A DNA stretch of 64,000 nt from Hericium rajendrae (taxonomy: Eukaryota > Basidiomycota > Agaricomycetes > Russulales > Hericiaceae), in NCBI GenBank assembly GCA_033439255.1, contig CM065881.1, positions 186,001 to 250,000 of the forward strand, in the 5' to 3' direction. Within the stretch, counting starts at the first letter, position 1. Every line of letters starts with the position of its first letter. The notes below the pieces were generated by a model. That model was given only the letters and a program-made list of their open reading frames with translations. It made no database searches and was not told where the DNA came from. Positions 14,921-55,384 of the stretch are shown in pieces. The position numbers and the translations under genes are program-made.

Positions 14921-15848
14921 ATGGCCATCCATACTACTGAACACGTCCCGAAGCGGAAACGAGATTCGACTGTCGACAATGAAGTAATCTCGTGCATCAT
15001 AGTAAAGCGGGAACATCACGGTAGTATGATAAGTTTTCATCGAACGGTGGACTTTTTGCTGACTGCTTTGCAGGGATGATACGATGGAGAGCCTATCGCG
15101 AGCTCCCATGTATTGCAGTCACAACAGAATTCAGCAATCTCGACCTCACTATCCTCAGCGACAATGTCCAAGGCGTCCCGGACAGCGCTCTCAAGAAGTC
15201 CCAGCGCAATTTAGTCAAACCAATCCAATTACAATACTTGCAGAACGTCGTATCCCTTGACGATTTCAAAAGTGTCTCCATCTCATCCACTGTGAGTTGT
15301 TCTCCACTCGTGACCCGACTCCCACCTAATCAAAACGTCGCTCAAAGACCACAGGATCGCCCACAACGAGATAGGAAGCCTGCGCCAGGATCTACACGTG
15401 ACAATCTCTTCTTCATGCGCGAAGACGGCGGTGCACCGTCGGGCCTTCTGCATGATTGGGACCTAGCGAAGGTATATCCAACAATGAGGCGCCCCAGCGG
15501 CATGGACGTTACTGCACAGGGACCGCGCCATTCATGGCACTCAATTTGTCCCAAACTAATCGACCTTGGCACAAGCACTGGCACGATCTGGAGTCGTTCA
15601 TTTGCATCCTCCTCTGGTATGCCGCCCACCTGAACCTGGACGGGACGGTGGAGCCGCAACATCCACTCCTACGTGAGTGGGCGGAAGGCACTTGGGACAA
15701 GATTCGCAATACCAAGAAGATGCTCGTTTCGACGCCGAAAGAAACCTTCGGTCGTCTCTTCGATGAGGTTCGACCTGCGTTTTCCCCCTTTATGGAGTGC
15801 ATCGAGAAGCCTCCTAGTATTCGACCGTCGAACAATAGCACTACATAG
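14921..15848 (+). pseudogene. short FunK1-like gene D1, several frameshifts
   Basis: Same plan as the short genes I and L. Exon 1 (14921-15020, exactly 100 bp as in those genes) encodes a basic N-terminus; exon 2 starts at 15074 and holds QRNLVKPIQLQYLQ; a third exon holds the C-lobe. One base is missing near the end of exon 2. The catalytic loop reads like RQD in place of HRD, and the frame shifts between it, the LLHDWDLAK segment, and GTAPFMALNLS/HDLESFICILL. Its C-terminus ends RPSNNSTT in place of the usual EDPxIxEL tail, as in D2. It is divergent from FunK1-B with about 790 bp between starts. Confidence 0.7.
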
Positions 15849-40497: not shown

Positions 40498-41461
40498 GAC
40501 AAGGCGTGGTGAGCAGGACGCGTCGAAACTTACCATTCATTGTTGCCGAACTATCGCAGTGCTAATGGCCTGTGCCAAAATGTGAGATAAGTATGCCCAA
40601 GGATAAGGACCGTCCATGTTTCGAACTTCCAGGCTGAGTGGCAGTGGCAAGCTGGCAGTCGGTGCCGCCATTATCGCGACGGCGACCGGCCCTAAATGCT
40701 CTAAACGCCGAATCAGAGAATCGACACAACTTGAACATGACTATTGTTGCGACCATATAACTTGCTATTGACCAGTGGACGTGCTAGTGAGATATATTCA
40801 GGTGCTGTTGCTGCTTCAAATTTACCGCCCTGTGCATTGAAATCTGCATTTGTACCATCATTCTTGTCGTTTCCGTCCTGCGGCCAGTATACCATGCAGA
40901 TGGTGCATCTTATTTCAGGGATTCATAAAGTCTGACGGAATGCTTCAATGCAGGGACAGTCGCAATACTCAGTTTGGCCTCGAGACTCGAAGCCCCATAC
41001 CCCGTGCAATAGACGATTTTGATGTACGGAAGTCGAGTCACGTCCATTCTGCGAATTTGCCTCTGGGAGACACGTATCGCGTTCCCTGAGATGGTTCTAC
41101 ATAGCAGACCTCGTCCTGCTGTCGTACCCTAGGATCGTACGCGCACAGCTCGACGGTGCGTAGTGCTGAAAACCGGGCAGGTTAAGTAGTCTCTCTTGAA
41201 GAAAGTCGGAATGCTTATTCCGCTGCACGTTCTTAATTCACGATCGACATGTCTAGTCGTCATATGCCCCACGAGTATGGCTATAGATGCTAGATGTCAG
41301 GTCGCGTTGTTCCTACTTCTTTTGTTCATCGTGAGTTCATTGTCTAGGTGTCACAGCCACGGTCACTTAAGTCCACACTTACGCCTTTTGACACCGGCCC
41401 AAGGTCTCATGCACACCTCTCTATTATCTCAATACTTATCCCCGCTCCGAAATACTGCGCC
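40498..41461. other. intergenic upstream of short FunK1 I
   Basis: About 960 bp. It contains the promoter of gene I. Short frames only; nothing else recognised. Confidence 0.4.
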
Positions 41462-42553
41462 ATGGTCATCCAGGCTGAACAGCTTGTCGAGCAGCGGAAG
41501 CGGAAACGACAACCAGACTCTGCGTATACGCTTACACACCGCTCGTTGTACCGCGCAGATGGTACGCTTTATGTTCACGAATCCACGACGTCCGACTGAC
41601 CTCCTCGTAGGGACAGTAAAATTGGAAATTTCTCGCGAGCTCTCCCAGATAGACGTATCGACGGAGAACATGCTTAGCCTTACAGAGATCTCTGTAGCTG
41701 CCACTATCCACCGCGCATCCAACAAAGCGCAGCGCAGTCTAGTCAGACCAATCAGTCCTCAATATTTTTCCCATATCGAGTCCTTGGAGGAGTTTATGTA
41801 TATTTTCCTCCAGCTTGTTCGCTGTACGTCATCCCTTCCAAATCTTCGACCGAAGCTAGCTTAGATGTCTCATCACGCATAGGTCACAGAGTTGTCCATG
41901 TGAAGACGGGCAGCGTCCATGGTGATCTGAACCTGAACAATTTAGTCTTCATGCGTGACGAGGGAGGCACTCCTTCGAGTCTTCTGAATGACTGGGATGC
42001 AGCAAAGCTCGTTCCTGCGGATGAGACCCATCACATGCTCGCCGCACGTCAACGTACCGGAATAGCCCCCTTTATGGCTATCGACCTCCTTTGCGAAGAC
42101 CTTCCCCTTCATCTCTATCGTCACGATCTCGAATCGTACATGTACATTCTCATCTGGTATGCCATCCACTTCAACTTGAACGGTTCTCAAGCGCAATGCA
42201 TCCATAGGGCTGTGGAGGGCTGGGTGCATGGCACTTGGGCCATCATCGGAAGTCAAAAAGGCCAGTTTTTCGCCAGCCAGGCTGCGCAGTACAGAAAATC
42301 GATCTATGACGCGATCACACCGGCCTTCCGTCCTGTTCAGACATCGATCCAGAGACTGGTCCTCATGTTTAATGATGGTATCCGTGCGCGAATGGACCGG
42401 ACCGACATACTTGAGCGCTTGGAGTTGGAGGATGATGTGGAAGCTCCAGAAGCTTGGAACGAAGATACCTTGAATGAAACCGTAACTTACGAGAAGTTTA
42501 TGGCTGCGATTGGTGAGGACCCATACATCACCGAGCTCGATGGTCAGGCCTAG
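41462..42553 (+). CDS. short FunK1-like protein I, C-lobe-only pseudokinase candidate
   Basis: Exons 41462-41561, 41611-41823 and 41883-42553, in phase, about 327 residues. Exon 1 (100 bp) encodes a charged leader with RKRKR. Exon 2 replaces the whole N-terminal domain and N-lobe with about 70 residues, ending IESLEEFMYIFLQLVRC, which equals the last helix before the FunK1 catalytic exon. Exon 3 is the C-lobe: VHGDLNLNNLVF (HGD, residues 117-119, in place of HRD), LNDWDAAK, RQRTGIAPFMAIDLL, LYRHDLESYMYIL, ending TYEKFMAAIGEDPYITEL. There is no glycine-rich loop and no ATP-binding lysine, so ordinary kinase activity is not expected. The open frame and clean splice sites argue that it is kept by selection. 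Related to J, K and L. Confidence 0.82.
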
Positions 42554-42839
42554 GATAACATGATTTGCCGCTATTGCATAGCGACCGCCATGATTTACTT
42601 TGAATGATATACTGCTGTCTCGTATAAATGACCAGAGTTAGAATGTATGGATCTCATTGCCTCGAATATATCTGAGGATCCCATTACCGACTACTTATAC
42701 AACGCAATCGGCCAAGAATATTTTTCGATACACAACATGAAGCGGCTGCAGGTCATCAGGCCTCCCGTCTCGTCCGACATATCCTGTTCACCAATCGTGT
42801 CGGGCACATGTCCTCATTCTGCTGGAACGCGATTGGATT

Positions 42840-43380
42840 CACGCTGTGCGACCAGGCACTGACTTGGGTGGCACAAATGCAGGTCGAATCTCGTGGAGAT
42901 GACCGATGCTTGTCGATCTCGAAAAGAAGATATCCTTGACAGGTTCAAGTGGACGACGCACCAGAGGAGGATGCACACGAAGGAGTCCTGATGGTGCCGG
43001 TACATGTACCGAGGCGGTACTAATCGCCTGAAGGACATCCACGCCGCGCGTGCGTCTTATCTGCTGGACATGCCTTCGCCAAACCTCAGTCGTGCAGACG
43101 GCCCGTCGAAGCAACGTCGTCCTTCCCATCTCAACGTAGAGAACTCTGTGGCCTGTGCACGAAGCCTTGATCAGGGAAACGACGGGTTAGGAGTAAATAA
43201 CGACTTCTCCGTCAGGAGAGCGTGTGATGGGCTTTCAAGCGCACCCTTCCTGGAACGCAGTCAGTCAAAATGCCATGAGCTGAGAGTTCAGAGACTCAAA
43301 TGCAAGGGCGGACTTCTGCAGATTATGAAAGCCACAGAATTAGAGAAAGTGGACCAGCGTGGCTACTTTGAACAATGAGC
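42840..43380 (-). pseudogene. short FunK1 fragment M
   Basis: Minus-strand pieces: RVRLKAHHTL near 43.25 kb (like GxVHLKxxRxL of exon 2 in the short genes), GRLHDxGLAKACPADKTH near 43.07 kb (DWD region with a stop in place of W), and RYMYRHHQDSFVCILLWC near 42.98 kb (the YRHDLESF helix). Frame changes and stops throughout. It is divergent from the intact long gene J, as D1 is from B and D2 from E, and shares their upstream motif. Confidence 0.6.
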
Positions 43381-43720
43381 TCTGCATCACGGCCGAAAAA
43401 GCGGGGAAATTATTGCTGCGAGACAATAACTAGTACTGACGCGTGGCTACAGCTCTGATCTTGCGGAAACGTGCGCAGATCAGATCTCCCTTTATGAGTC
43501 GTGCTTTCTTGACTCATAACACCACGCTGAAGTGACAATTCGACGCGACAGCGGTTGCTGTCGCCGACAGGGTACCGCCTGACGTGCAAAAATCTACAGG
43601 ACTACTGCTCAGTGTCAATATGTTACATACTTAGCTAAGAATGTGCAGAGTCTTACTGATGGTATCTATCCTGGTGACTGGAAAGTTGGAGGAGCAAAGC
43701 AAAAGTCGCGTCGGGGATGA

Positions 43721-43937
43721 CTGTCGACGCGGTCACATGACGACACCCGAACGGTGGGCTCCATGAAGCGCCTTTGTTCTTATTGCAATTTCAACTTGAT
43801 TTCAACCTCAGCCTCATGTGGCTACCTCATGGTCGGCAAGCTGCCATTGTTCTCGTTCACATTTGTCGTCAGCCACAGCCGACCAAGTCCACATTTCTCA
43901 AAGGTATATTAGCCAGCCAGCCCGCCCTTAGTTGAAG
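43721..43937 (+). promoter_or_regulatory. conserved FunK1 promoter block (J)
   Basis: Same ordered elements as in B and C: GTCGACGCGGTCACATGA, GAAGCGCCTTTGTTCTT, CAATTTCAACTTGATTTCAA, CCTCAGCCTCATG, GGCTACCTCATGG, and a TATA-like GGTATATTAG at 43903-43912, about 85 bp before the ATG. The 5' UTR part TTGAAGGTAAG is shared with B as well. Confidence 0.65.
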
Positions 43938-43991
43938 GTAAGCACCGTCTACTCCCTGTGTTGCCCTTTCCCGTTACCGACCCGCATCATC

Positions 43992-46418
43992 ATGGCTCCT
44001 AAGAAAAGCAACCCTTCGACCGACCAAAACAAACGCGACCGCACGCAGAAGATCCTACAGTGTGCTGGTCCGACGAAGAAGACGATAAACGGTGAGTTCA
44101 TTCTCGTGCGGTTTGTCACGCCTGACGGAGTGATTGACTATTGCATACAGGCCCTACGCCTTTGAAGTCCGGTCTCAGCTCCATAACGGCACCACATTTC
44201 GTCAAGAACATCGTCGATCCGCAGCTCAAGGACGACGTCAACAGGAATATGCAAGGCCTACTCGACGTGAGCGACTTCGTCAAGAACGTCTTGGGCTTCG
44301 ATGAGCAGGACCTGAAGTGGCAAGAATGGACGTTTACGCCACCCGTGTCGCTCTACGACAAATACGCCGCATGCAAGCAGGAGCCCTCCCGATATGAGCC
44401 ATTCTGCGAGATGCTGGAATATGCCTTGAAGCAATGGGACGACAACACAAACCCTGAACGGAAGCGCACTATCCGCCTTCGGCCAAATAGAAATGGCAAG
44501 AAGATCAAGGGCTATAAGGGCTATGAAAAGCCGAACGAGCGGGACCCGGATCTCTTTTCGGTTCTCCCTCATGAAACTGACGACAAGATCATTATCCAGT
44601 GGCGCGGGATTACCATTGTCGTCGAGTTCAAGAAATCGGGAACCCGAGCAGCAGATCGACTTAAGGCTTTGCGCGAAACGGGTCATTTCGCATCCTGCCC
44701 GGATCCTCCATTAACGGTTCCCAAAACATCCTCGCGCCCGAAGCGGAAGCTGCATTCCGTCGATGAACCCAACAAAGCGCAGAAGACTGGGCCTAGCTCT
44801 CTCCCATCGTCACGCATCAATTCCCAGCCAAACGAACCCGATGTCTTCTCTGCCACAGGCTCTACCGTTGTCCAAGATGGTCCCATTCCACGCGCCACAG
44901 ACGATCAGATTCAACTTGCAGGATATGCGAACGAGATGTTCGCGTCGGTCGGCAACAGGCGCTACGTTACAGGTATCTTCGTGGACGACGATAAGGTGTC
45001 GCTCTGGTACTATGACCGGATCGGCGTCGTACGGTCGAAGGCATTCAGCTTCTACGAAGATCCTAAGCTATTTGTGCTTGTCGCCGTTGCCGTCGCCGTC
45101 TGTGACCGCAAACACTTTGGATACGAGCCGCTTCTCATTCCGGAGACAGAGGTCGTCAACCCATCGACTGTGGACAACAGCGTTCTCAACCTCGAAGTTC
45201 AACACACTGTTGACGGTACAGGCGCTCCAGTCCAGGGCCCTGTTTCATTTCAGGTGCAAGGCGAACCCCTCTACATTCAATACGGAATCATCGGCCGAGG
45301 CACTGTTGTGTACTCTGTGAAGCCTAAGGAGAAGGGCGGCTTGGCATTCCCAGAGGGCAAGCTTATCGCGAAGCTGAGCTGGCCTGTCAAGAGCCGCGTC
45401 GCCGAGGACTTCCTCATCCGCGACATCCGCAAGAAGATCGGTCCGACATGGTCGAAGCATATTCCGGAAATTTTCTGTTCGATGACGCTCGATGAAGCCG
45501 CATTATCTCTTCCGCGCACTTTAATGGGTGCCATGGCCGGGATCCCCGAGGACCGTGTCCTCCGCCTGATGATCACCCGTCATGCCCACGAGCTGAAGGA
45601 CGTCAAGTCTATTGAGGAATTTAAGGCCATCTTCATTCGGCTTGTACGATGTGAGCATACCCATCTTTCTTTTCCGCATTGCTTTACTAACTGTCTCGTT
45701 TTCAGGCCACCGAGTGGTATTTGTGAAAGCAAAGGTGCTGCACAGAGATTTGAGCGTGGGCAATCTCATGTTCCTACGTGAAGGCGACGAGGACCCCTTG
45801 GCGCTTCTGAACGACTGGGATCTAGGAAAGCTGCTCGCTGCGCAAAAGGAATCCAAAGAAGCTAAGGAATCCGGGGAGTCTGAAGAATCCGGAGAATCTG
45901 AAGGATCCGAGGAATCCGAAACGCCTGCCGCTCGTCATCGTACAGGAACAGCCCCCTTTATGGCCATTCAACTCCTTGATAAAAAGCCTCCCCCCCACCT
46001 CTATCGCCACGATCTCGAGTCGTTCATGTATATCCTAATCTGGTGTGCCCTCCACTTCAACCTGAACGGCTCTGAGGTGTCAGGTGTCAGTGAGCTTGTG
46101 GCGGATTGGACGTACGGCAGTTGGGGGAGTATTCAGAAATCGAAAGCATTCCTCTTTTCAGCTGGAAACTCATTCAAAAACGAGATCCTCGACTCGATCA
46201 CACCAGCCTTCCTTCCTATAAGCATATGGATTAACGGGCTGATCCGCATGTTCCGTGCCGGTGACCAGGCCCGGATAAACCACGAGGACAGCCTGGAAGA
46301 CGCTAAGGGCCAAGCCACTGTTGCTTGGAACGAAGATACTCTGAACGGAACTGTCACTTACGAGAAGTTCATGGCTGCGATTGGCGAAAAGCCATACATC
46401 GCCGAGCTCGACGGTTAG
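43992..46418 (+). CDS. FunK1-type protein kinase J, long form, intact
   Basis: Exons 43992-44091, 44151-45650 and 45706-46418; about 770 residues. Leader MAPKKSNPSTDQNKRDR. Exon 2: LLDVSDFVKNVLGF, VEFKKSG, a basic linker, GNRRYVTGIFVDDDKVSLWY, GIIGRGTVVYSV, KLSWPVKSR. Exon 3: VLHRDLSVGNLMF (HRD 546-548), LNDWDLGK, then an acidic Glu/Ser repeat inserted before ARHRTGTAPFMAIQLL, LYRHDLESFMYIL, ending TYEKFMAAIGEKPYIAEL. All catalytic residues are present. The N-terminal two thirds group with B, C and G, but the last 150 residues (WNEDTLNGTVTYEKFMAAIGE) match the short genes I, K and L, so J looks like a hybrid of the two subfamilies. Promoter block conserved with B and C. Confidence 0.9.
45846..45921 (+). 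repeat. Glu/Ser-coding tandem repeat in the activation segment of J
   Basis: Imperfect repeats of a 6-15 bp GAATCCGAA-type unit encode a stretch such as ESGESEESGESEGSEESE between the DWD and RTGT motifs. Paralogues have about 10 residues here and no repeat. Being in the activation loop, its length could change substrate access, and such repeats vary readily between strains. Confidence 0.7.
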
Positions 46419-46753
46419 GATAAGTAAGTATTAGTACTTATTCCGAATTGGTCGCTATTGGATAGTGACTATATGATTTATGAATAGTCGCGTCGTCTCC
46501 TCTATATGACCATTATGATTGAATGATGCTGTGTGTTATGATACATAAATGTACGTTGTGTAGAGCGCCCACCCTGACCCTCGTTTCAGTCTTGCCCGCG
46601 CTTGCCAGTGCCCGCCGCTTTGAGTCTGCAGAAATTAAGTATCATCTCTCCGACGTCGTCGACCACGGTGAGGACTGCAGCTTGAATCAGCCGTCTTGTT
46701 TGTCGCTGATATACTCATATAATGTTATATACAGACCATTGACCATCCCACAG
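46419..46753. other. intergenic between J and the NOP8 fragment
   Basis: About 335 bp, the 3' UTR of J. Parts resemble the 3' flank of short gene I. Confidence 0.4.
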
Positions 46754-46998
46754 ATGGACAAACCGATCACGAAAAGACTGCACATTTCTGGCCTCACGCC
46801 CGCCATCATGCCCGATAGCTCCCGACACTCTCCGCCCCCCTGCCTTCATAGTCTCCCAAAGGCAGAGTAGACACTTGACTCAAACTTCGCTCAGGAACGA
46901 CATGTCTGACCACCTTCAATACCCTCAGCCTTCAGCACCCTCATCGCCCTCGACGGCCTTGGCGCCCTCGATGTGCTCGGTCAGCCACGGCTTGACAG
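46754..46998 (+). pseudogene. fragment of the NOP8-like RRM gene (5' end)
   Basis: From the ATG at 46754 the sequence matches the start of the gene at 53905 (MDKPITKRLHISGLTPAI against MDEPITKRLHISGLTPAI), including about 15 bp before the ATG. After about 60 bp the frame is lost; a further match (ALDGLGALD region) appears near 46.95 kb. Exons 2-4 are absent. It lies downstream of J, as the intact gene lies downstream of short FunK1 L, suggesting one duplicated block. Confidence 0.75.
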
Positions 46999-47679
46999 GC
47001 AACCTCCGACAGGTATAACGCCATGACTTTAAATCCTTTTCCGCATGCTGCAGCCATCTCTCGTTCTGTCTACGCCATCATTGGTTTAGGCATGCCAAGG
47101 CGCACAGATCCGTCTACATATGATTCCGTCACAGAGCTCTTCTGCCCCGTTCTGGAGGCACGCATCATGCAACTGGCCAGCGCGTCCACGTAGGCGAGGC
47201 TCACCATGGCTCGCCATATTGCAAGGTGACTCTCGAATGGGGAAAAGAGGTGACGAATTCAACTGGCTTGTGACGAGAATATGCCTCGGGAATGTGTCAA
47301 TTACGGTACGTTCTTGCTTTTGAACCTGCTGTCTCTGGTAGCATATCTCATTGTGGGTTGATCTGCAGTGGTGTGCCTTCCAAGCGTCGCTCAGTCCAGT
47401 TGTCACTCACTGACAGAAGGCATCTGTCGCCACGTCGAAGCAGAATATTTGCCGCTCTTTTCTCCAACCGGCACCTGCAGCAAACGTTCACTGAGCTTGG
47501 CCTGTGTCCCGCCCCGTTCTGGGAGAAAGGATCGTGAGCCTAATTAGTATGCTTTTATGTGTTCATGCTGCCTTAAAGGAAATTCGCAGAGGCTGTCTGT
47601 CATGAAACAGATTGTCAAGAATGGGGCGAACTTAACAAAATGATCAACAGCTTTCGGAGGGTGAGACCATCGGAGATAC
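46999..47679. other. intergenic, no gene seen
   Basis: About 680 bp with no recognisable coding sequence on either strand. Confidence 0.4.
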
Positions 47680-47745
47680 ATCATGTACGAGAATTTCGTG
47701 GATATGCTTACTGAGGATCCAGTTATCGCAGAGCTCAATGATTAG
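47680..47745 (+). pseudogene. FunK1 C-terminal tail fragment O
   Basis: Encodes MYENFVDMLTEDPVIAELND and a TAG, the characteristic FunK1 end (TYENFMxxIGEDPxIxEL). No other kinase sequence precedes it, so it is the last remnant of another FunK1 gene. Confidence 0.6.
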
Positions 47746-47920
47746 GACAGCTACTATGTGAGTAGCAGTCTTCACCAGTCGCACGCCCTCTGCTCATACG
47801 CCACGTGGGTCTATCGTTTCCGTGTTCAAGCCACTAGCGTATGGCCAAAGACGTTCTCCCTGCGTTTTTGTGCTCTGTCAAAGCCCGAGGACTCTCATGT
47901 CTCTTCTGTATCCCGTCAAC

Positions 47921-49028
47921 ATGACAGCTCCAATTGGTTCCATCATGCCCACCCCGGCTGGACAAGCTGACCAGCGGAAGAGAAAACGGAAACGACAATC
48001 GGACCTAGTGTGCACACTTGTGCACCACTCGCTATGCCGCGCAGATGGTAAATTTCGTTACCGCCATTTTGTGATGTCTGGCTGACTGTTTCGCAGGGGT
48101 CATACACTTGAAGTCCTGTCGGGAACTCCCTCGGTTGAACATTTCGACGGAGCACAGCGTGCTTGACCTTGCAGATATACCTGTGCTGCGCAGCTCCCAC
48201 AGCGTGCCTAATCTAGCACAGCGCAACCTAATCAGTCAGATCCGTTCGCAATACTTACGGGATGTGTTGTCTCTCGAGGAGCTCAAGTCCGTTTTCATCC
48301 AGGTCGTCCGCTCATCCTTCATCAGTCTTCAGACCACAACTCGCCTGATCGTCCCTTCATCCATAGGTCACAGGGTTGTTTACGCGAAGACAGGAAGCTT
48401 GCATGGCAACCTGGGCCCGAACAAATTTATGTTCACGCGCGATGACGACGGCGCGCCCCTGGGCTGTCTAGACGATTTGGATTCAGCGAAACCCGGATTT
48501 GGGGACGAGAAATCGACAACGCCTGCCGCTGATACTCGTGCAGGCGAAACCCTTTTTTGTGGCCATTGAACTCCTTCGTGAAGAGCCTCCCTCCAACCTG
48601 TATCGCCACGACCTCGAGTCATTCATGTATATTCTGACCTGGTGTGCCCTTCATTTCAACCTGGATGGTACTGAAGGGCTGGGTATCAGCGATCCTGTGG
48701 CGGTTTGGACACACGGCACTCGGCAAAGCATCCAAGATGCGAAGTTATTCCTTTTCTCATCTGAAGTAAGATTCAGAAACAGAATCCTGGACTCGATCAC
48801 ACCGGCCTTCCTTCCTATACGAAGATGGGTCAAAGGACTGATCCGCTTGTTCCATGCCGTCACAAGGCCAGAATGACCCGGAACGACGACCTGGACTCGG
48901 AAGCTGAAGAGGAGGCCCCTCATGATTGGAATGAAGATACGCTTAACGGAACCGTAACTTACGAGAATTTCATGGCTGCGATTGGTGAGAAGTCACATAT
49001 CGCCGAGCTCGGTGGTGCCAATAGGTAA
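47921..49028 (+). pseudogene. short FunK1-like gene K, splice-site loss and frameshifts
   Basis: Same plan as I and L: exon 1 47921-48047 (leader with QRKRKRKRQSD), exon 2 from 48097 (GVIHLKSCRELPRLNIS to FIQVVR). The donor expected after VVRC is gone: CGCTCATCC stands where paralogues have CGCT followed by GTAAGT or GTACGT. In exon 3 the catalytic loop reads LHGNLGPNKF (Asp lost) and DDLDSAK stands for NDWDLGK. A frameshift lies near 48555 (before AIELLREEPPS) and another near 48865. The end TYENFMAAIGEKSHIAEL is kept. Confidence 0.75.
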
Positions 49029-49229
49029 GTTAGTTGAAAGCTGTTCTCATGCTATACGAATACAGGTGTCTCAATGCCACGTACTCTTGATTATTATAAG
49101 AGACTGTATTGCCGGGTGCGTGCCGCCATCGTATTAACAAGTACCATCTCTCGAGTTCGGATTGAAGTTGAACAGACCGTTCGAAACGGTACGAGTGACA
49201 TGGTTCGGCCAGTCATGTGCCAGGAGCAT

Positions 49230-51361
49230 TCACTTCTCATGTGAGAATTTGACCGGCTTGACGAGGGATGTGGCCCATTCAGATCTTGGTTTAATTGAGC
49301 ACTTGAACGGCATCGGATGGCTGAAAATTATCATTATACCACGTACACCCCACTAGAAGAAAGGAAAATACCTAATCGTCGCGTCAGTATATTCGACTGC
49401 CGGTTCAATTACGATACCGTCTTCTACTGCCTTCGAGATATCGAAGACAGATAGCAGCATCGCACATGCGAGGAATAAGGATGCGTCTGCGAGAACCATA
49501 CCTGCGTGACGGAAAGCTTCAGTCAATTGTCGAGATACTTGATCTCGACCGGACGTACCAGGACAAGCGCTGCAAGAATGAGGATCAGTCTCCAGTATGA
49601 CAGTCTTGTTCAACACCAGCTTACCGCCTCCCAAATCCAAATGTGAAGGTGTGCGGATCAAGCTCGGCATCCCTGTGCTCTGACGTGATGAATCGCTCAG
49701 GGATGAATTCCATAGAATCATGATAGACATCCTCGTCATGCAAGAATTTCCTGCCACAATACAGGTCAGCTCGCGGACATCGGAGAGAACACACGACGTA
49801 CCAAATGTTCGATATGACGATGGAACCCTCCGGGATCAGATATCCGTTGTAAATATCGTCTTCGATCAGCCGATGCGGGACACCTTCAATTAGGGCGTAA
49901 GGCCGATTTTGCTGACAGAACTGGCAAGCGCCACACACCGAGCGGTCCCACAGGATTCCAGCGCAGTACCTCTTTCACCACAGCATTGACATACGGCAGC
50001 TGGTCACAGTCGCGCATGGTGGGCAGACGCTCGCGGCGCAAGAGCGCGTCCAGTTCGGCTTGCGCCTTGCGCTGCACTTCTGGGTACAGAGTCATCGCGA
50101 GGATAAACGAGTGGATTGCGGAGACAGTCTGCAATACTATTCGTAAACATCGAATGATATGCAGGACGGCCAGCTTACTGTGTCGGCGCCGCCTGAACAT
50201 TCGCGACTCAGCTGTATGTGACATGGCAATTTCGGAGACTGCTGCTCACCAGACATGACTGACGAAGCTGCCCATTTGATACTCTCTTCCTTTTCTGGAC
50301 TGACTTGGCCGTTTTCCAGGAACACTGACGTGAAGGACGGCAGAGCGTTACCATCCGCCTGAGAAGTGAAAAAGATCAGTGCCATTTTGACCTGCAGCGA
50401 CGAATATGACCTCACTATGCGATTCTTGACATACTTGTGCGGCAGATTCACCATTGCTGTTACGTCGGCGGCCCACTCCTTCGCTATCGACTGCCATGAT
50501 GATCCAGGGAACCAGGCAGGCAGGTATTTCACTGTCAAGCACCAATCAGTCTTATACTCAAATTTTTTTAAAGCACGAAATACTCACGAATCGGGAACGT
50601 ATCGACTAGAAATGCGCCTGGTGTGGTCGCCTCGGAGAAATGTTCCGCTGCCTTCTCAGCGAGGTCGATGAAATGATCGTCCTTCTCCTTGATTTCGTAC
50701 CCATGAGAAAGTTTGAGGATGATAGCACCCGCAGTCCTGATCGGCGCACAATGCCAGAGTTAGTACGAACCATCCTGGACAGACGGAGACACATACAACC
50801 GGATATGCTGTGCGAACTCCTCCGGCCGCTCGAGTATGCGCCTGCAGAGCCTGTGCGTCTCGACCTCCACAATGGGGTAATATGGCTCGAACTTGGTTCT
50901 CGAGCCAAAGAAGCGGCTGAACATGCGCCGATAGTCCCGCATCGTGTTGCCATAGCGCATCAGCGCGAGCCCCGACTTCCACCCGATGGCTTCGCCGGCC
51001 ATGTGCAGCACGGGCCGGTCGGAGTAGATCCTGCTACGTTTGTCGAGTAGGTCTGTAGCGGCCTGTGCGGAGTTGAGCACGACGATGTGCTGGCCGAAGA
51101 CAGAGAGGTGGACGATCCCGCCTTGTCGAGTTGTAAAGATGGTGAATTGCGAGAAAGTGGAAATCGCGCACCATACATCGGTGCCCAGCGCGTGAAGGTG
51201 CGCCAGGCGTATGAGGTGGGCATGTCCAAGACGTTGCCGATAAGAGGGAGTCCTTTCGGCCCTGGTGGAAGCGGCAGGCGTTTAGAAGGAAAGAGCATAC
51301 GCTTGAGGATGGCCAGTGCAACGATCGCAAGACAAGCATCTAACCAGACGAGAGCTGCCAT
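49230..51361 (-). CDS. cytochrome P450 monooxygenase
   Basis: Twelve exons fit in phase: 51361-51172, 51121-50800, 50736-50588, 50531-50416, 50358-50250, 50192-50179, 50128-49939, 49883-49802, 49750-49625, 49569-49559, 49501-49372 and 49320-49230; about 509 residues, normal for the family. An N-terminal membrane anchor (WLDACLAIVALAIL) is followed by the proline hinge PLPPGPKGLPLIGN. The I-helix oxygen-binding motif GGADTT is built around a 14 bp micro-exon. Next come the ExxR motif in KEVLRW, PERF, and the heme loop FGFGRRACPG, whose cysteine lies in an 11 bp micro-exon. It ends SHPMPFKCSIKPRS. An ER-bound class II enzyme needing P450 reductase; it resembles basidiomycete P450s loosely annotated as O-methylsterigmatocystin oxidoreductase-like. 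Substrate unknown; no other secondary-metabolism gene lies near. Confidence 0.93.
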
Positions 51362-52211
51362 GTTGAAGCGTGAATGATTCAGAAACCTTCCTGGATGCGA
51401 TTGTGAGAAGGAATGCCGTCAGCGTGAGACGCAGCTATCAATGGATGTTGGGAGCAAAGTGTGATGGAAAGCCAAGATTGGGCTATTTGAACTCCTCCGC
51501 ACCAGAGCACACATGGGGCTAAGCATGCGCGAAGTACGCATCGACCATACCTACAATCGAGATCATTGCGGTGTCTAAAGGATGATCACCGGACTAAGAT
51601 CGTCCTGCAGGTCGTCCGCGTATTTGATGACCCAAAGAATATGATACCCAGTATGGTGTTTGTCGGCGAATTCCACGCCCCGGATATAGTAGACTCAGGT
51701 CGAATACGTAGATACGGTCGTAGCAGACTGAGACAACGGCTTGGGCGGTATTTCGGTGGATGATGCACTCCGTCCTCAGGCTGTAGCGAGCTTGGTAGCG
51801 AGCAGCCTGACTTCACCATACTCTCGAAAGAACCTTGGCTCCGGCTGCAAAGACTGCAAAGTTTATCACGACGTCCAAGCTCGATCGGTTTCGTCAGACG
51901 AGATGCCAAATACGGTGTCTCTGCATGCACGTCCGCCGCGCAAGAAGCAACATACGAGTGATGGATACTTGCGCGTACTTACCAGCAGATTGCGATTGGG
52001 CAGCTATGGACAATGCATCATCGAATCTTAAAGGATCGCTGCGATGTGCACGCAGCCTGCGTATGGGCCTCAGGCACGAAACGCGCGAGCCTTCGGCTGA
52101 ATCCATTCGAACTAGAGCAGCAACCCAACCATACACAACATTGCAGCAGCATACACTATACAGGATCAGCATGCGAAGGCCGATCGAGCAGATTGCGGAA
52201 CAAACCATGCA
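51362..52211. other. intergenic between P450 start and NOP8-like 3' end
   Basis: About 850 bp: P450 promoter and 3' flank of the next gene. A minus-strand frame of 114 codons (51586-51930) has no domain or splice partner and is not called. Confidence 0.4.
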
Positions 52212-53905
52212 TCACACCTCCGCGCCCTCTCCCCCGCGCCGCCGCCGGCTCTTAACTGCTTCACGATGGCGCCGTTTCCACTCGCGCGTCAGCTCGCCAC
52301 GCTGCTCCTCCCACGCGCTGCGGATCTCCGCCTCGCTCTGCGTGCGGCGCCACGCTGGCGCATGGGCACGCGCGCCGTGGCGCGGAAAGAAGAGCGGCTT
52401 CGTGGTGTCCAGCTGGAACGTCGATTGCGGGTGGGTTGGAGGGAGGGTGACGGTCGTGGGTGCTGCTGGGGTGGGAGCGGCGGCAGCGGCAGGGAGGGGA
52501 GAGAGGTCGAGGTCGAGATCGAGGTCTACGTCGAGGTGGCCGAGGAGGGAGAAGCCGGCTATATGCGCGCGGGTCACGTTAGGTCGACCATTGCTGTCGA
52601 GGATACAAATGAAAGCACGCACCTTCGTCCTCGCGCGGCGCGAAGAGATCTTTCAGTTTTGTACTTGTGCTCTGCACGGCGGGTTGCCCCGGCTTTTTTG
52701 TGGGAGACGGCTCTGGGGACGGCGGCTCGGGTACCGCTTCAGGCACGTTGTCGACGGCGTCTACAGCCTGCGGCGCGACGTTATCCATGTCGACGTCGGA
52801 CCCGACACTCTCTGCGCCGCCCCATTCGTCCGTTTCGCCGAACATGTTCTTCAGAAGATCGAGCGTTTTGACTTTCTCCGCGGTGAGCGAGTCGCCGGGC
52901 TGCGATACGGATTTTGATGGTGTCGTCTGTGTTTGTGAGGATGGGATATTTGCCATGGCGATTCTCTGCGTTTTTGTCGGTGGAATGATTGCCGTCTGGG
53001 CGATTTTCGAGGTCGATGCTGGGTCTTCGTCCACCTCGCTAGCCTCGGGATGCGTCTCGTCCATCACCTCCTCCTCCTCGCTCCCGCTCTCGCTCTCATC
53101 GCTATGGGTCACTGTCCCAGCGTCCATCGAGCCACCCTGCGCCACCGCAGCACCCACCGCCTCCAGAAACACGCCCTTCACATGCGTACTGCCATACCTC
53201 AGCGGATCGATTGTCCGCCTCCGCGCCCGCGTCGGTGGCTCGCGCTTCCGCTTCCGCTCCTTCTTCTCCTTCTCGCTCTTCCCCGCCTTCTTGGTCTTGG
53301 CCTGGACTTCAACGGGCGGGTCGAGCGGGCGCGCAGGGCGCATGCGCACGGGGCGTACGAGCCGCCCGAGCGGCGTGACGCGCCACTGCGGGCGCTGGGC
53401 AACGTTCTCGGGCGTGATGAGCGACATGTCGGCCGCCTGCGCGCCATGCGTGCGCGAGCGTTTGCGTGGGGGCGCGGTGTCCATCTCCTCATTTTCGCGC
53501 GCGATTCTGCGTTTGTGATATGTTAGTTGGTGGGCGAGCGGACAAGCGGTAAGGGTGAGCAGGCGAGACGCACCTCTCGCGATAGTCAGGCTTCGCTTCG
53601 CCGAGGCGGAGCCGGGCACCCTTCCAAGTCGACCCGCTAAGGACGTTCATGCCTGCATGTCGTCAGCGCAATCTGAATGCGAAAGAAAAGTCGGACGCAA
53701 AAGACGCACATTTCGCGAGCTTGCCCTTGGTCGTATCGAGCGTGACATAGGCATACTTGCGCGGCTGGCCGAGCGCATCGAGCGCGCCGAGGCCGTCAAG
53801 AGCAGTGAGGGTGCCGAAGGCGGCGAGGCGGGCGGAGAGGGCGTCGGGGGTGATGGCGGGCGTGAGACCAGAAATGTGCAATCTTTTCGTGATTGGTTCG
53901 TCCAT
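52212..53905 (-). CDS. NOP8-like nucleolar RRM protein
   Basis: Exons 53905-53710, 53652-53574, 53506-52623 and 52558-52212; about 501 residues. The N-terminal RRM (residues 1-90) has RNP2-like LHISGL and RNP1-like YAYVTL, split by two introns, and ends MNVLSGSTWKGARLRLGEAK. Then come a basic KKAGKSEKEKKERKRKRE stretch, an acidic Ser/Glu region, TLDLLKNMF, and the C-terminal signature LFAPREDEAGFSLLGHLD, FFPR and WKRRHREAVKSRRRR. This layout is that of Nop8/NOL8, a nucleolar factor of 60S ribosomal subunit assembly; the call rests on the layout and the AGFSLLGHL signature. An Asp-Leu repeat (LDVDLDLDLDLS) follows the signature. A fragment of its 5' end lies at 46.75 kb. Confidence 0.8.
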
Positions 53906-54301
53906 CTATGGGATTGTCAACAGTCTTTCATAATATTATGTGCCGTGCATCAGCAACAAAGAAGATAGTGGAGAAACTGCTATCCTCACCGTATAGTCGA
54001 CAGCGTCGAAGAGGCGACAACTTCTTCAGAGCCATAACTTTAAGCGCTCTAGGAAAGCGAGTGACACAAGGGTTAGGGTGGGCGCTTGGTGGGCGCTTAG
54101 AGTTATTCTCAATTTCGGCGGGCAACTGAGTCCTTGCGGACGCAATGGAGGACAGATTTTATTCAGATCATGAGTATCATATGTTGTAGTCTAAAGACTC
54201 GGTATCCGTGAACCACACTTTCATAAGTATACGAGGCGACATGACTGTATATAAATTATATTAATAATGGCCGCTTTGAATAGCGATGAATTCGGGCGAT
54301 C
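53906..54301. other. intergenic between NOP8-like start and FunK1-L end
   Basis: About 395 bp: NOP8-like promoter and 3' UTR of L. The last 15 bp before the ATG are copied at 46.74 kb. Confidence 0.45.
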
Positions 54302-55384
54302 CTAAATATCGAGCTGTGGGCCTTCACCAATCGCAGCCATGAACCTCTCGTAAGTTATGTGGTTATTAAGGGTATCTTCGTTCCAATTATCGGGAGCAGC
54401 CTCCTCCTCACCCCACTCCACACGATCAAGGCAATCGTCCCGTTCCTTTCTGGCACTGAAACCGTGGTCAAACATGAGGGTGAGGTTTCGAATCCATCTC
54501 GCCAGGGAACGGAAGGCCGGCGTGATCGCGCTGTTGATCAATTGCCTGTGGATCCGACCATCATTGGAGAAGAGTCGGCCTTTCGCCATTCTGATAGCGT
54601 CCCAAGTATCATACGTCCAACGCGCCACAGCCCCGTTGATACCTGGCGCTTCGGAGCCGTTCAGGTTGAAGTGGAGGGCGCACCGGATTAAGATATAGAA
54701 GAATGATTCGAGATCGTGCCGATAGAGGTGCGGGGGAGGCTTTATACGAAGGAGTTCAATGGCCATAAAGGGGCCTTCGCCTGCACGACGACCAGCGGCG
54801 CGCGTTGTCGATGTCTCGCCCGCGAAGATGGACTTCGCCGGATCCCAATCGTCCAGACAGCCCAGAGAAGTGCCGTCGCCATCGCGCGTGAACAGGAAAT
54901 TGTTCAGGCTCAGACTCCCATGCAGGCCTTTCGTCTTCATGTAAACGATTCTGTGACCTAGGCATGAAAGAACGGTCAGGCATGTTGTGTCTCAAGGCTG
55001 ATAGATGACTTACAGCGGACGACCTGGATGAAAACGGACTTGAACTCTTCGATAGATGACACATCCTGTAGGTATTGCGGACGGATCTGCTTGACTAGGT
55101 TGCGCTGTGCTGGATTGGCCAAGTGGTGCGAGGTGCATGGCACAAGCATAGAAGTCTCTGCAAAGTCGAGCACTTTGTGCCCCATGGAGATGCCCATTTG
55201 AGGGAGCTTCCGATAGGCCTTTAAGTGTACGATCCCTGCGAAACGGTCAGCCAGACATCATAAGATGGCGCAAACGAAACATGCCATCTGTGCGGTATAG
55301 CGAGCGGCGCACGAGCGTATATGCTGGATCTGACTGCCGCTTGCGCTTCCGGTGCTCAGCTAGCTGTTCAGCCTCAACGACCAT
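54302..55384 (-). CDS. short FunK1-like protein L, C-lobe-only pseudokinase candidate
   Basis: Exons 55384-55285, 55235-55014 and 54957-54302, in phase, about 325 residues. Exon 1 is 100 bp (MVVEAEQLAEHRKRKRQSD). Its intron has a GC donor (GCATGT) where I and K have GT. Exon 2 carries QRNLVKQIRPQYLQ and FKSVFIQVVRC. Exon 3: LHGSLSLNNFLF, so both Arg and the catalytic Asp of HRD are lost (HGS, residues 120-122), DDWDPAK, GRRAGEGPFMAIELL, LYRHDLESFFYIL, ending TYERFMAAIGEGPQLDI. No N-lobe. With the Asp gone it can hardly be an active kinase; the intact frame suggests another role, perhaps binding or regulating long FunK1 kinases. Neighbour of the NOP8-like gene. Confidence 0.8.

Follow-up and report, generated by a model that had tools for sequence, protein, structure and literature searches.

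Pfam entry PF17667, worded as fungal protein kinase, is the family that we take to be generally known as FunK1. In passages of three papers FunK1 is described as an expanded family whose function is unknown (PMC3203195, PMC3591445, PMC6001611). Kinases that have given up catalysis are on record in other families: among the passages available, Mad3/BubR1 is a case in which deletion or mutation has cost one duplicate its kinase function and the other retains it, the Ffk and SRPK-like candidate pseudokinases of Aspergillus show lineage-wise expansion and loss (PMC3591445), and the pseudokinase domain of GCN2 is a known example of its kind (PMC12394161). In the titles, abstracts and passages that were searched, a scope outside which lie the subscription papers including the founding Coprinopsis paper, we recognised no description of a FunK1 that lacks the amino-terminal kinase lobe (N-lobe) or of paired short and long FunK1s. 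Here we analyze two such short genes, I and L, together with their broken relatives, in a FunK1 cluster of Hericium rajendrae. The window is the whole stretch of 64,000 bp, bases 186001-250000 of contig C4 in an assembly of 46.8 Mb. Genome matches to PF17667 numbered at least 127, counted per exon with 107 of 128 candidates scored, and many were clustered on contigs C4, C2, C3 and C7. One match, C1:1002605, was set aside, its frame reading as a CK1-type kinase.

Anatomy of genes I and L

Gene I (41462-42553, + strand) and gene L (55384-54302, - strand) are intact three-exon genes encoding 327 and 325 amino acids. As read in the initial annotation, they share one exon plan and both are open. 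The first exon has 100 bp in both and the second 213 bp (I) or 222 bp (L); the introns measure 49 bp and 56-59 bp, and intron 1 of L has GC, not GT, as its donor. The product of exon 1 is a basic leader with the consensus MV(I/V)xAEQLxExRKRKRQxDxAYTLxxRSLYRxDG. Exon 2 retains the end of the N-lobe and the hinge region as far as VRC, and exon 3 encodes the carboxy-terminal lobe (C-lobe). Scores of 75.6 bits (I) and 75.3 bits (L) against a curated cut-off of 24.1 place both proteins in PF17667, and neither holds the full domain, the alignment starting at profile position 261 (I) or 252 (L) of 387. A sequence search of the PDB with the C-lobe profile brought up 38 distinct sequences with E ≤ 1, the best of them at 0.012; the matches inspected were ordinary kinases, aligned over the catalytic half.

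The glycine-rich loop and the ATP lysine are absent from I, L and the broken short copy K. Their absence had been noticed at first reading and is borne out by the late start of the PF17667 match and by an empty search upstream. A long N-lobe profile of nine sequences, run with filters off over 1.5-5 kb upstream of I, L, K and the relic D1, found nothing above noise (best -1.8 bits); the long gene J, the positive control, scored 549 bits. The short proteins align to this profile only at positions 285-347 of 347 (29-56 positions). A protein search of the genome with exons 1 and 2 of L returned 10 matches, of which 6 (E 2e-7 or better) fell on I, L, K and D1 and 4 (E 0.04-0.5) on the N-lobe end of long genes. 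Exon 1 itself matched only L and I in that search, and exon 1 of K was recovered by a local search. No match to exon 1 was found in the long genes; linkers of long FunK1s carry a basic stretch, at most a candidate homologue of RKRKR. The complete three-exon frames and the undetected upstream N-lobe, both sequence predictions, support the view that I and L are genes devoid of an ATP-binding lobe, as opposed to 3' fragments of longer genes that contain one, the outcome that the initial annotation had named as fatal to its proposal.

The catalytic HRD has become HGD in I, HGS in L and HGN in K, exactly as first described. I (HGDLNLNN and LNDWD) retains the catalytic-loop Asp and Asn, L (HGSLSLNN and LDDWD) has lost the catalytic Asp, and K reads HGNLGPNK and LDDLD. 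The description of the group as having lost its catalytic residues is thus right for L and K and wrong for I, which keeps Asp, Asn and NDWD; L likewise keeps DDWD. In the activation segment RTGT has turned into RAGE in L and K and reads RTGI in I. The other full C-lobes of a 13-row alignment read HRD except for that of a long FunK1 at 1704-889 (- strand), which has HGD in its place, keeps DWD and lies in an open frame of 645 amino acids. HGD alone is therefore no mark of a dead copy. I and L are pseudokinases in the sense of kinase-fold sequence without ATP-binding/catalytic residues. They are not pseudogenes in the sense of a disabled frame; K, D1, D2 and M are, and each of these four is disabled, in line with their initial labelling as relics.

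Descent and selective constraint

Fifteen C-lobes were collected, K included, and 13 entered the tree after omission of w12 (broken) and L31 (short frame). I, L and K formed one clade (support 97/93), with J and the C3 gene L28 as its sister (grouped at 95/83), and a codon tree agreed. J is the closest long relative of the short genes within the window, with a C-lobe 53% identical to that of I and 52% to that of L. It keeps the YRHDLESF helix and the TYEKFMAAIGE tail, as in the short genes, and has an intron where they have one, before HRVV (judged by frame change). On sequence grounds, the phylogeny shows the short genes to descend from a J-type FunK1 and to have been copied afterwards within the cluster, giving I, L and K. 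Exon 1 and the truncation are common to all three; the truncation is therefore older than their split, and their own branches record evolution without an N-lobe.

Constraint was measured as ω, the ratio of nonsynonymous to synonymous substitution rates (dN/dS), using a codon model in a script written for this analysis and unchecked against a published program. The codon alignment retained 204 of 317 columns, and branch tests were run on 8 of the 13 sequences; the values derive from paralogues at large distances and may be affected by gene conversion and saturation. The one-ratio ω was 0.38 (204 codons, 8 sequences). It was 0.55 in the short clade versus 0.30 elsewhere (p = 0.0004), and each short gene was below 1 on its own branch (I 0.42, p = 0.0014; L 0.48, p = 0.021; K 0.47, p = 0.0065).

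The alignment was then split at the YRHDLES helix into 75 codons before it, covering the catalytic loop, DWD and activation segment, and 129 after it. Before the helix, ω was 0.705 in the short clade versus 0.174 in the long genes (p = 1.1e-6). After it, from αF to the tail, the values were 0.49 versus 0.37 (p = 0.18), and ω was below 1 on the own branches of I (p = 0.041), L (p = 0.0083) and K (p = 0.0034). The contrast between halves was reached by none of 109 column permutations, and by none of 100 when K was left out. By branch, the catalytic half gave 1.19 in L and 0.61 in K (p = 0.31), neither different from 1; relaxation was smallest in I, which keeps HGD and DWD, and largest in L. Exon 1 of I, L and K was constrained over its 32 codons (ω 0.27, p = 0.0024), and exon 2 gave 0.48 (p = 0.0009) with D1 added. 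L-sized frames were simulated under neutrality, 1,000 for each of the branch lengths of L and I, and not one remained free of stops in either set; with the length set to 0.3 changes per codon, 76 of 1,000 were open. This pattern of constraint fits a putative αF-αI and tail surface that is in use, with catalysis mattering less or not at all.

A second group of FunK1s without an N-lobe forms a tandem array on contig C3, in which six copies (S1-S6) can be discerned. The short set proposed initially is thus not alone in the genome. The PF17667 matches listed for the array start at profile positions of at least 307, so the N-lobe is absent. Five copies could be read through, and in these the C-lobe encoded by exon 2 has 211-234 amino acids and keeps DWD and YRH(D/E)LE but has no HRD. 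Exon 1 of S1-S3 measures 145-151 bp, starts with MASDE or MAQDE and ends at the same intron position. The tests left out S4, a broken copy, and took in S6, whose exon 1 contains a stop, for exon 2 only; for exon 1 they were confined to S1-S3. Values of ω were 0.48 for exon 2 of five copies (p = 2e-12) and 0.43 for exon 1 of S1-S3 (p = 0.005). A single origin of all short FunK1s, with the C3 and C4 genes grouped, was rejected by the approximately unbiased test (p = 0.006, with a long branch leading to the C3 copies), and the C3 array appears to have been derived separately from I, L and K.

Interpretation and alternatives

Our preferred interpretation, to which we give slightly less than an even chance, is that I and L are one-lobed C-lobe pseudokinases kept for binding, which tune or compete with the long FunK1s. 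They lack the N-terminal domain and nearly the whole N-lobe and have a short basic first exon peculiar to these genes. By the ω values, the catalytic and activation half relaxed in the clade overall once truncation had occurred, with exon 1 and the half from αF to the tail staying under purifying selection. The anatomy argues against an ordinary kinase, whose action would presumably be impossible without the glycine loop and ATP lysine. The basic leader may direct the short proteins to the nucleus; long FunK1s also have a basic stretch. The preserved face of αF-αI and tail could bind whatever a long FunK1 binds, be it the substrate of that kinase or a scaffold, or else bind the long kinase directly, and the short proteins might thereby compete with or tune the active kinases encoded beside them.

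The idea of pseudokinases kept for binding, already voiced in the initial annotation, draws strength from the constraint on the retained part and from the clade-wide relaxation of the catalytic half. Also in its favour are the intact frames of I and L, the single origin of I, L and K, the lack of any N-lobe match upstream, a 52-bp upstream stretch that was found at the two intact copies only, and the existence of a second constrained array without N-lobes. The pairing with the long genes C, J or P as decoys or regulators that was suggested there would be one candidate role. A number of results weigh against it. The catalytic half of I has an ω of 0.38 on its own branch, which is below 1 (p = 0.042), so I is perhaps not a binding-only protein. 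The clade contains broken copies and its genes are perhaps on their way out; the ω of K equals that of I and L although K is broken, and the constraint may thus be past. L has a GC donor. For exon 2, I, L and K without D1 give an ω of 0.66, which does not fall significantly below 1 (p = 0.11). A dN/dS near 1 across strains had been named at the outset as the result that would speak against retention; among the paralogues compared here, the own branches of exon 3 are below 1, and with the stem included and the other short genes omitted, the whole exon is no longer clearly so, L giving 0.75 (p = 0.45, not below 1) and I a borderline 0.54 (p = 0.093). In the C3 array the contrast between halves is reversed (0.32 before YRHDLE, 0.62 after), and the half-specific pattern therefore belongs to the C4 clade and not to N-lobe-less FunK1s generally. 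AlphaFold models of exon 3 alone reached a mean predicted local distance difference test score (pLDDT) of 58.3 (L) and 57.0 (I), from a shallow eight-row alignment and without a long FunK1 control, with residues 1-74 of the L model below 50. Searching the PDB by Foldseek with these weak models of L and I gave no match at E ≤ 0.001.

I and L may instead be leftovers of birth and death, constrained for a time and bound to follow K, D1, D2 and M, with no lasting function. We regard this as a serious possibility, though a tentative one, which ranks close behind retention for binding because K is broken at the same ω and relics occupy the same window (K, D1, D2, the relic at 43125-42937 and, weakly, M). 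Decay would sit well with the higher ω of the short clade relative to long genes, with the GC donor of L and with the 3' flank common to J and L (78.6%), by which segmental copying is seen to occur in the cluster; it sits poorly with a truncation older than the I-L-K split, with frames open where no simulated neutral frame was, with relaxation limited to the catalytic half and with constraint on an exon 1 that is unmatched in the long genes.

Kinases like aminoglycoside phosphotransferase (APH) usually read HGD, and I, as opposed to L, might still bind nucleotide or transfer phosphate in an APH-like manner through its HGD, Asn and DWD, perhaps borrowing an N-lobe in trans from a long FunK1. 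HGDLNLNN and NDWD are intact in I, the own branch of I still has the catalytic half below 1, and one long FunK1 in the window combines HGD with DWD. We nevertheless hold such activity to be improbable, as the glycine loop, the ATP lysine and the αC region are absent and the catalytic half of I is not below 1 once the stem is included (0.83, p = 0.77). It is slightly more improbable still that the gene models are in error, I and L being the 3' part of longer transcripts whose N-lobe exon lies at another place: in both genes an acceptor-like YAG lies ahead of a shared 52-bp stretch with the frame open from there to the ATG, but the upstream search with filters off gave no N-lobe match above noise, the differences inside the 52 bp look unlike coding sequence by inspection, and an ATG starts exon 1 in I, L and K.

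The surrounding cluster and comparison with known systems

The features are listed in Table 1. K has lost its intron-2 donor, and the reading frame of its exon 3 changes twice. Coordinates of D1, D2 and M were assigned here, the initial annotation having given no positions.

Table 1 Coordinates of short FunK1 genes, relics and related features (window positions unless a contig or locus is named)
Feature	Position	Strand	Remarks
Gene I, exon 1	41462-41561	+	MVIQAEQL..RKRKR..YRADG, basic leader; ω 0.27 for exon 1 of I, L, K
Gene I, exon 2	41611-41823	+	ends with the hinge/αD part that closes the N-lobe region of long genes
Gene I, exon 3	41883-42553	+	FunK1 C-lobe with HGD, DWD, YRHDLES, TYEKFMAAIGE
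Gene L, exon 1	55384-55285	-	
Gene L, exon 2	55235-55014	-	preceded by the GC-donor intron
Gene L, exon 3	54957-54302	-	FunK1 C-lobe with HGS, DWD
K, broken short copy	47945-49016	+	exon 1 47945-48047, exon 2 48097-48312
D1, short-copy relic	15073-15809	+	exon 2 open at 15073-15282, C-lobe broken
D2, relic	24478-23728	-	exon-2 and C-lobe pieces
M, stop-ridden relic	about 37639-37200	-	approximate limits; weak match to exons 1-2 (E 0.5-0.7), readable HRVMYMKAG
Extra FunK1 C-lobe relic	43125-42937	-	between I and J, opposite strand; from a short or a long copy
J, long FunK1	44138-46418	+	N-lobe and C-lobe with HRD; stop-to-stop limits of two large open frames
52-bp stretch upstream of I	41335-41386	+	86.5% identical to L counterpart
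52-bp stretch upstream of L	55543-55493	-	
Tandem FunK1 array S1-S6	C3 3.539-3.553 Mb; L019:3333-7900, L020:990-7375		six copies discernible

J and L have a common 3' flank (46646-46815 versus 54013-53844, 78.6% identity), followed by a second block (46928-46989 versus 53821-53760, 84%), and this sharing points to segmental copying inside the cluster. The gene beside L (MDEPITKRLHISGLTP..., - strand from 53905) has a start that recurs, together with the sequence preceding it, as a fragment after J. About 260 bp ahead of J (43143-43397) match L028:3380-3638, ahead of its C3 relative, at 84% identity. Upstream of I and L, the 52-bp stretch is 86.5% identical, compared with 66.8% over the genes themselves. 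No third copy was found in the window (up to 3 mismatches), before K or in a genome search that skipped very common words. The simplest reading of the stretch is a promoter or 5' leader element.

A bolder proposal, which takes in the C3 array and which we think rather unlikely on present evidence, is that the FunK1s of this single fungus lost the N-lobe on two or more occasions, that local amplification and purifying selection followed every loss, and that a recurrent class of one-lobed regulators arose, which modulate nearby active FunK1s through the αF-αI face. The short genes are of interest because FunK1 is a large fungus-specific kinase family with no known function. If they act on the long ones, they would be natural dominant modulators and a direct route to FunK1 substrates. 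For structural biology, a selected protein of little beyond a kinase C-lobe would be unusual.

Like pseudokinases generally, I and L hold kinase-fold sequence without ATP-binding residues, and the clade of I, L and K has in addition a catalytic half that is relaxed overall. Known pseudokinases mostly retain two lobes; in I and L one lobe is nearly gone. The Ffk and SRPK-like proteins have no kinship with FunK1, and loss of the N-lobe is unmentioned in the passages that treat them (PMC3591445). Mad3/BubR1, as far as those passages describe it, offers a parallel in that kinase function is lost in one paralogue and kept in the other; Mad3 has its kinase domain deleted, unlike I and L, in which part of the kinase domain remains. 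The closest comparison is with the long FunK1s of PF17667 such as J, with which I and L share a C-lobe 52-53% identical, the intron before HRVV and the YRHDLESF helix, and from which they differ in lacking the first 250-260 of 387 profile positions and in having an exon 1 of their own.

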